Shown here in pieces: positions 21,527 through 57,798 of a DNA stretch of 64,000 nucleotides. The position numbers and the translations under genes were made by a program. This stretch comes from Variovorax paradoxus (lineage in GTDB: Bacteria > Pseudomonadota > Gammaproteobacteria > Burkholderiales > Burkholderiaceae_C). How positions within the stretch are numbered: position 1 is the stretch's first letter; each line of letters begins with the position of its first letter. Below the pieces are notes generated by a model. The model saw only the letters and a program-made list of their open reading frames with translations, was not told the origin of the DNA and did not search any database. The DNA lies in the NCBI RefSeq assembly GCF_009755665.1, contig NZ_CP046622.1:806001-870000 (forward strand). The letters are read 5' to 3'.

Positions 21527-21778
21527 ATTCAGGGCGCGCACCCGCCGACGGGGTACCTTTCTCCGCGAATGTCCCCCGGCCTGCGGCCTCCTCCTTTATT
21601 TCGCTGCGCAAGGCACCCCGCCAGCGGGTGCGTTGCAAAGAGCAGTCGTTGATCAGCGATACACCAGCAGCGTGCCCCAGTGCACAGGGCATCGGGTGCT
21701 CCCCGCAGCGAAATAAAGGAGGAGGGGCGCAGCCCCGGGGGACATTCGCGGAGGGGAGTACCCGGTGGCCTGGGCACA
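21527..21778 (+). mobile_element. Large palindromic MITE-like element, copy A
   Basis: This is a non-coding element of about 250 bp with long imperfect inverted arms (21548-21619 and 21694-21766). The perfect blocks are 21562-21579 with 21735-21752 (18 bp) and 21589-21608 with 21704-21723 (20 bp, TCCTCCTTTATTTCGCTGCG). Between the blocks each arm has its own mini-hairpin: GGCC-TGC-GGCC and GGGGC-GCA-GCCCC. The central loop is conserved in the other two copies (36.5 and 57.5 kb). No transposase or credible ORF is inside. It occupies most of the 390-bp gap between two operon genes. Confidence 0.85.
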
Positions 21779-21860
21779 CGCCCTGAACAAAACGCCCTGA
21801 ACAACACGCCCCGAACAAAACGCCCAGAACAACAACCCAAGAACAAAAGCCCTGAACAAG
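21779..21860 (+). repeat. 14-bp tandem repeat at the end of palindromic element copy A
   Basis: Five units of 14 bp follow the consensus CGCCCTGAACAAMA (CGCCCTGAACAAAA, CGCCCTGAACAACA, CGCCCCGAACAAAA, CGCCCAGAACAACA, ACCCAAGAACAAAA), then a partial unit. Degenerate versions flank the same end of copies B and C, so the tandem array seems to be part of the element. It ends about 20 bp before the isomerase start. Confidence 0.85.
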
Positions 21861-36460: not shown

Positions 36461-36726
36461 TTGTTCAGGGCGTGTGCCCAGGCCACCGGGTACTCCCCTC
36501 CGCGAATGTCCCCCGGGGCTGCGCCCCTCCTCCTTTATTTCGCTGCGGGGAGCACCCGATGCCCTGTGCGCCTGGGCACGCTGCTGGTGCTCCGCTGATC
36601 AACGACCGCTCCGTATAACGCGCCCGCTGGCGGGGTGCCTTGCGCAGCGAAATAAAGGAGGAGGCCGCAGGCCGGGGGACATTCGCGGAGAAAGGTACCC
36701 CGTCGGCGGGTGCGCGCCCCGAACAA
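36461..36726 (-). mobile_element. Large palindromic MITE-like element, copy B
   Basis: This is the same element as at 21.5 kb, on the opposite chromosomal strand but in the same direction relative to the host operon. Ends read TTGTTCAGGGCG and CGCCCCGAACAA, so short terminal inverted repeats are visible. The 20-bp inner stem, both mini-hairpins (GGGGC-GCA-GCCCC and GGCC-TGC-GGCC in transcript sense) and the central loop are conserved. It lies between the dctM-type and dctP-type genes; the rest of the 400-bp gap holds only degenerate GAACA-rich sequence. No coding region is credible. Confidence 0.85.
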
Positions 36727-57537: not shown

Positions 57538-57798
57538 TTGTTCAGGGCGTGTGCAAAGGCCACCGGGTACTCCCCTCCGCGAATGTCCCCCGGGCTTCGC
57601 CCTCCTCCTTTATTTCGCTGCGCGGAGCACCCGATGCCCTGTGCACTGGGGCACGCTCTGGGTGCACCGCTGATCAACGACTGCTCTGAATCACGCACCC
57701 GTCGATGGGGTGCCTTGCGCAGCGAAATAAAGGAGGAGGCCGCAGGCCGGGGGACATTCGCGGAGAAAGGTACCCCGTCGGCGGGTGAGCGCCCCGAA
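57538..57798 (-). mobile_element. Large palindromic MITE-like element, copy C
   Basis: This is the same element as copies A and B, transcribed in the same direction as the ABC operon. The inner stem (TCCTCCTTTATTTCGCTGCG arms) and outer stem are conserved. One mini-hairpin is changed to GGGC-GAA-GCCC instead of GGGGC-GCA-GCCCC, yet still pairs. The end nearest the ATPase gene has CGCCCTGAACAACA and decayed A-rich repeats. It fills the 346-bp gap between the permease and ATPase genes; no coding sequence is credible there. Confidence 0.85.

Follow-up and report, generated by a model that had tools for sequence, protein, structure and literature searches.

The genome of Variovorax paradoxus carries a family of dispersed intergenic elements, each composed of inverted hairpin units with covarying stems and a nearly frozen core, and we judge with a probability of roughly 0.6 that these are non-autonomous, REPIN-like mobile elements spread in trans by a protein recognising the folded purine strand. 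Three copies lie in the window, the whole 64,000-nucleotide stretch of DNA analysed here. A first-pass annotation of this stretch had described three intergenic copies sharing about 260 bp, which both the alignment and 37 whole-length genome matches bore out: copies A, B and C are one element of 258-260 bp each, with refined edges running from TTCAGGGC to GCCCYGAA. Copy A (21528-21787, minus strand, inverted relative to B and C) extends from TTCAGGGC at 21528-21535 to GCCCTGAA at 21780-21787, with a short-chain dehydrogenase gene and a DsbA-like gene as neighbours; its left hairpin unit (21537-21632) has the purine strand on the minus strand and 24 of 25 pairs in the outer stem P1, and its right unit (21680-21777) has it on the plus strand with 23 of 25 pairs. 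The right end of this copy had been placed at 21860, which takes in a neighbouring stretch where the terminal motif is tandemly repeated (21776-21859, plus strand; period 14, about six copies of ACGCCCTGAACAAA); the edge lies at 21787. Among the three window copies, this 14-base array was seen only beside copy A. Copy B (36464-36723, plus strand), located between DctM and DctP genes, runs from TTCAGGGC at 36464-36471 to GCCCCGAA at 36716-36723 and consists of a left unit at 36474-36571 (minus strand, 22 of 25 P1 pairs) and a right unit at 36619-36714 (plus strand, 24 of 25); its predicted RNA fold reached -185.9 kcal/mol (z = -10.66). Copy C (57541-57798, plus strand) lies between ABC-transporter genes encoding an ATPase and a permease, extends from TTCAGGGC at 57541-57548 to GCCCCGAA at 57791-57798, and contains a left unit at 57551-57646 (minus strand, 22 of 25 P1 pairs) and a right unit at 57694-57789 (plus strand, 23 of 25). 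A peptide-coding reading was rejected, the frame following the ATG of CGAATG differing by eye between copies B and C. The element may also contain a G-quadruplex (GGNGG..GGNGG).

The long inverted arms noted previously are indeed inverted, but they do not form one simple stem: what appeared to be a long palindrome is two inverted hairpin units of about 96 nt, each arm being a complete hairpin, with the purine-rich strands of both units facing outward around a variable spacer. Using copies from other genera to derive the anatomy, we found that each unit comprises, from outside to inside, the 25-bp P1, a 3-nt mismatch (A·G, C-G, G·A), a 5-bp stem P2 (GCGAA/TTCGC), the near-invariant purine-rich strands GCGAAATAAAGGAGGA / GGGGGACATTCGC, and an inner hairpin P3, with AATAAAGGAGGA and GGGGGACAT as the near-invariant core strands. 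Within the V. paradoxus genome the 16-nt 5' core was exact in 83 of 83 units and the 13-nt 3' core in 78 of 83, while some P3, stem and spacer columns dropped to about 40-60% agreement. The central loop, whose conservation had been the argument for the type of element, is shared within this genome (column agreement about 50-100%), but its conservation falls short of that of the arm cores and does not extend across genera, so that the real signal resides in the arm cores. Likewise, the terminal ends TTCAGGGC/GCCCYGAA, which form short inverted ends on most V. paradoxus copies, are not common to other genera, whereas the internal cores are. The core also varies in a coupled manner: among 341 distinct units, 5'-core position 13 and 3'-core position 3 were A,G in 315, G,A in 21, A,A in 3, G,G in 1 and C,G in 1, and the joint change from A,G to G,A in the internal loop fits a swappable A·G pair. 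Another coupled variant, GCGAAGTAAAGG with ACATGAGC, was observed in 8 of the 341 distinct units (L093, L105, L114, L156, L158, L161), as if tandem G·A pairs stood in for two Watson-Crick P2 pairs.

Further copies, for which the first-pass annotation had proposed a search, proved numerous. The single-contig genome (5,574,400 bp) contains 37 doublets and nine single units, 83 units altogether, and copy A used as query returned the 37 whole-length matches at 87-100% identity plus three partial ones. With up to two mismatches allowed, the 16-mer CGAAATAAAGGAGGAG gave 41 forward and 42 reverse matches, every one of them exact, compared with 0 and 1 for the reversed 16-mer, which confirmed that the similarity of the three copies is far above chance. 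The 16-mer starts were spaced 121 bp apart in 36 of 37 doublets and 120 bp in the remaining one. The nine single units kept 22-24 of the 25 P1 pairs, and eight carried the exact 3' core; with single units intact and cores near-frozen, selection appears to act on the unit itself and not just on its mobility. According to a simple ORF caller, the doublets are flanked by 23 tandem, 13 convergent and one divergent gene pairs; the caller put some genes wrongly, and the one divergent case looks like such an error.

The covariance check gave a strong signal in an alignment of 68 diverse units, comprising 64 of 73 selected units and four window units (the nine selected units left out were L101 and eight from loci L213-L270). 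Standard pairs occupied 92.1% of pair cells compared with 63.5% after shuffling, and the covariation score was 0.730 relative to 0.188 for shuffled alignments and 0.112-0.149 when partners were slid by 1-3 columns. Changes on both sides of a pair were found in 651 cells (194 shuffled) and affected 32 of 34 pairs (26.3 shuffled), and RNAalifold predicted 29 pairs from the same alignment, 28 of them with compensatory change. The signal further distinguished the two strands. At P1 positions 4-27 of the purine strand, G·T outnumbered A·C by 800 to 58 in the 341 distinct units and by 168 to 30 in the 73 most diverse units; purine-purine mismatches exceeded pyrimidine-pyrimidine ones in the former set (370 vs 183), with no difference in the latter (97 vs 82, P = 0.30). 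The inner loop read C(GNA)G in 278 of 341 units and in 43 of 94 distinct P3 sequences, while the complementary loop C(TNC)G occurred in none of the 341. In addition, the predicted DNA fold of the purine strand was better by 3.3-11.7 kcal/mol in all six units tried; for the right unit of copy A (21678-21779), the values were -36.4 kcal/mol for the purine strand and -24.7 kcal/mol for the other. The G·T excess, the C(GNA)G loop and the better DNA fold together identify the purine strand as the strand kept foldable. Because loops of the C(GNA)G type have exceptional stability in DNA, we favour single-stranded DNA over RNA as the probable active form.

We then surveyed the distribution of the family. 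Among 61 genomes of the genus (V. paradoxus included), the 16-mer was present in 44 and a covariance-model match at E 1e-4 in 49, with at most 63 candidates scored per genome, and the number of units per genome ranged from 0 to at least 63, the high counts being lower bounds. Beyond the genus, a 17-mer was detected in 19 of 299 genomes of the GTDB family, representing 10 of 141 genera, and the spread across Comamonadaceae genera is patchy. Named hosts among the matches listed were Variovorax, Ramlibacter, Hydrogenophaga, Pseudorhodoferax and Pseudoxanthomonas. When genomes were sampled across the whole class, 4 of 369 matched, namely V. paradoxus itself, one member of the same family and two of a second family (f14), which, given Pseudoxanthomonas among the hosts, is probably Lysobacteraceae. 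In that second family 14 of 149 sampled genomes matched, the top one (G812) with up to 28 forward and 32 reverse matches; 400 kb of this genome contained three doublets and one single unit, and the doublets were inverted and outward-facing as in Variovorax. A replichore strand bias suggested by the matches listed for this genome was dropped, the 400 kb giving four units on the plus and three on the minus strand. Viral carriage was likewise rejected, because the 16-mer occurred in 13 stretches of the viral_contigs set and the unit in none of them, and the phage collection yielded no match to the element. Three records in the plasmid collection carried copies, all from Variovorax and predicted to be non-mobilizable. 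Two local arrangements were also observed: a BIME-like cluster (L127:4978-5702) in which five or more units lie in array-like succession within about 0.7 kb, and, by eye, terminator-like hairpins with T-tracts flanking the element on both sides at three loci of Hydrogenophaga and kin (L076, L088, L093).

Sites lacking the element in relatives, another check the annotation had named, were found at all three window positions. With both anchors found and other-strand loci left out, orthologous loci could be judged in 18 of 30 cases for B, 15 of 30 for A and 18 of 30 for C; a doublet or single unit was present in 6 of 18, 5 of 15 and 8 of 18, respectively (V. paradoxus included), and the remaining judged loci had no recognisable unit. 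The intergenic region was 55 bp or shorter at eight element-free loci for B (e.g., L218, L223, L224, L238), seven for A (e.g., L246, L250, L252) and nine for C (e.g., L277, L282, L287, L289), and at one site-A locus (L244) just remnants of the element ends were left. Neither the 37 V. paradoxus copies nor the alignments of sites A and C showed a clear target-site duplication; at these two sites relatives are strongly diverged and the extra stretch exceeds the length of the doublet. As no junction was precise enough to show insertion, we infer movement from presence/absence and copy number, and such movement is presumably slow, since sites A, B and C are common to close relatives. Some relatives have lost one partner and retain a single unit (L211, L243, L248), and one genome (G042) carries duplicated or nested copies at sites A (L241) and C (L270); in the nested copy at L241 a novel substitution in the core is common to both arms, suggesting conversion of one arm by the other. 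Exchange between copies was also evident from a comparison of G000 with G004 at 5 of 37 sites, where orthologous copies were 0.893-0.914 identical yet ranked only 17th, 5th, 11th, 3rd and 8th in similarity among the 37 V. paradoxus copies, indicating that sequence exchange between copies outpaces their divergence in situ. In the intergenic regions orthologous to sites A and B, some element-free relatives carry a second, unrelated palindromic repeat of the GCGCAGAGGACGCGAAGG / CCTTCGCGTCCTCTGCG type (L212, L225 and L231 at site B, L258 at site A).

Rfam gave no match at gathering score in the 64-kb window (the best sub-threshold match, in copy B, had E 3.3 and 14.1 bits against 50), the REP tag GTAG/CGTC is absent, and the element was not named in any title or abstract found in the literature search. 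Integron attC sites, which presumably resemble the unit in having a variable stem and folding as a single strand, have conserved R and L boxes and lie next to gene cassettes. In architecture the element works most like a REPIN, with a larger, novel and differently built structured unit. In the part of PMC3116915 consulted, REPINs are described as two inverted conserved units around a less conserved spacer, dispersed between genes and predicted to form single-strand hairpins with compensatory changes, with singlets as derivatives, all of which is shared by the element and its single units. The differences are equally clear: a REP unit is short (20-40 bp) with a GTAG or CGTC tag at one end, whereas the present unit measures about 96 nt, ends in the variable P1 and has two stems and a purine core; the GI REPIN in the same portion of PMC3116915 has 71 bp between 16-mers, compared with 121 here and a doublet of about 260 bp; and REPIN singlets are said to decay, while the nine single units here match the doublets in integrity. 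According to the available part of PMC2229807, the CIR elements of Caulobacter and Brucella are intergenic repeats of about 110 bp with a linker between two long arms, as here, but they are alphaproteobacterial and contain the GANTC methylation motif, and ERIC and similar MITEs are, as here, gene-free intergenic palindromes of about 100-300 bp, but they have TIRs, duplications and a terminal TA, whereas the conserved part of our element is internal.

As a candidate mobiliser we considered the Y1 (HUH) transposases. PF01797 gave a single Y1 gene in 31 of the 33 Variovorax genomes picked, and of 26 further genomes bearing the element, 20 had one or more; the sole Y1 gene of V. paradoxus (L201:1468-2160, 231 aa) scored 47.7 bits against PF01797 (cut-off 23) and 71.3 bits against the REP-associated tyrosine transposase model NF047646, under its cut-off of 80. 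The gene is single-copy and syntenic (its upstream neighbour is the same in all 31 Variovorax genomes read), and GGGGTCAGATTC and GGGGACATATT motifs lie on its downstream side; GGGGTCAGATTC and GGGGACA motifs are conserved downstream of the Variovorax Y1 gene. According to section 20 of PMC6006769 and the part of PMC3733652 consulted, genes of subclass 2.1 (TIRYT) have GGGGWSAS inverted repeats, not REPs, on their flanks, and motif and context (not a tree) suggest that the V. paradoxus gene is of this type. Motif-bearing inverted repeats, different in sequence from the unit, flank both sides in 6 of 22 Y1 loci, the V. paradoxus locus not being among them. A repeat-flanked RAYT was rejected: while REPs and REPINs have a cognate RAYT flanked by the repeat (a REPtron), the element has none beside it and was absent from all 54 Y1 loci when about 1.5 kb on each side was scanned with up to six substitutions. 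The same portions of PMC3733652 and PMC6006769 describe TIR repeats in dimers or clusters, and the hosts of our element carry a Y1 gene of similar type. GGGGACAT of the unit agrees with GGGGWSAS at seven of eight positions and departs from it at the last base, which is T in 337 of 341 units; this resemblance is a lead, not membership. The repeats at the Y1 loci here are A+T-rich (GGGGTCAGATTCC type), while the unit is G+C-rich with P1, P3 and AAAGGAGGA. One of the S. maltophilia TIR families of PMC3733652 (its Figure 9) may be the same element; a search of the text of PMC3733652 and of PMC12306157 for several Comamonadaceae terms gave no hit. A Y1 gene was present with no unit match in G002, G015, G024, G036, G040, G055 and G057, and 15 units were found with no Y1 match in G035 (one contig, 99% complete) and 48 in G018 (89% complete). 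Across 30 genomes, those with a Y1 score of at least 48 bits (n = 15) had a median of 61 units and those below 47 bits (n = 15) a median of 1, high counts being lower bounds; because the gene is syntenic and diverges along lines of kinship, and because G053 and G006 are exceptions, the score was dropped as evidence and as a copy-number predictor. A TIRYT-like Y1 enzyme, the sole candidate found, is named as mobiliser only tentatively, and we regard this assignment as rather doubtful.

Other explanations were weighed against the same data. The first-pass annotation had offered structured RNA genes as one possibility, and the strong covariation with G·U-type pairs on one strand, the placement of 23/37 doublets between tandem and 13/37 between convergent genes, and the position of copies B and C between genes inside transporter operons would all suit elements that act in transcripts (at mRNA ends, in processing or in regulation), are selected as RNA and spread by recombination only. 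We nevertheless consider this unlikely, since the opposite orientations of the units would give any through-transcript one sense and one antisense unit, the commonest loop, the DNA-stable C(GNA)G, is neither GNRA nor UNCG, and Rfam was negative in the window. That annotation's other suggestion fared differently in its two halves. A dispersed element without a transposase was supported, the element being gene-free and present in many further copies. A classical MITE moved by a DDE transposase recognising the TTCAGGGC/GCCCYGAA ends, however, is in our view highly improbable: short inverted ends on most V. paradoxus copies, the absence of genes and element-free sites in congeners agree with it, but neither a clear target duplication at the 37 copies or sites A and C nor a parent transposon or partner insertion sequence in the loci fetched was seen, and it is the internal cores, not the ends, that other genera share. 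Nor do we give much credence to fixed sites for a host chromosome protein, gained and lost by recombination with the hairpin as a mere by-product; the near-frozen core in doublets and single units alike and the dispersed intergenic location over the chromosome are what such sites would show, but a double-strand site needs neither covarying P1 and P3 nor a one-strand G·T excess, and copy number among congeners varies from 0 to at least 63.

Under the preferred reading of a REPIN-like element mobilised in trans, the purine strand would become single-stranded and the unit would fold through P1, the GCA/GGA mismatch and P2, continuing into the purine internal loop with its putative A·G pair and then P3 with its small loop. 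A trans-acting protein would recognise this fold together with the near-invariant core strands and carry the doublet into intergenic sites; ectopic and fold-back conversion might afterwards exchange sequence between copies, and loss of one unit would leave single units. It is also conceivable, at somewhat less than even odds, that the family represents a distinct class of mobile single-stranded DNA hairpins, neither REP/RAYT nor TIRYT, whose frozen non-Watson-Crick purine core (A·G swapping to G·A) is recognised by a new protein of Comamonadaceae and Lysobacteraceae. In this family, selection on a folded DNA strand has left an unusually clear mark, in the form of covarying stems and a frozen core, with element-rich and element-free species side by side and a unit small enough for in vitro tests. 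If the Y1 enzyme is the recogniser, REP biology would reach the TIRYT subclass, a large group about whose targets little is known; if it is not, there is another hairpin-binding or mobilising protein to find. Collectively, the variable stems and the frozen core suggest that the folded single strand is recognised by a protein that has contributed to its spread through bacterial genomes.
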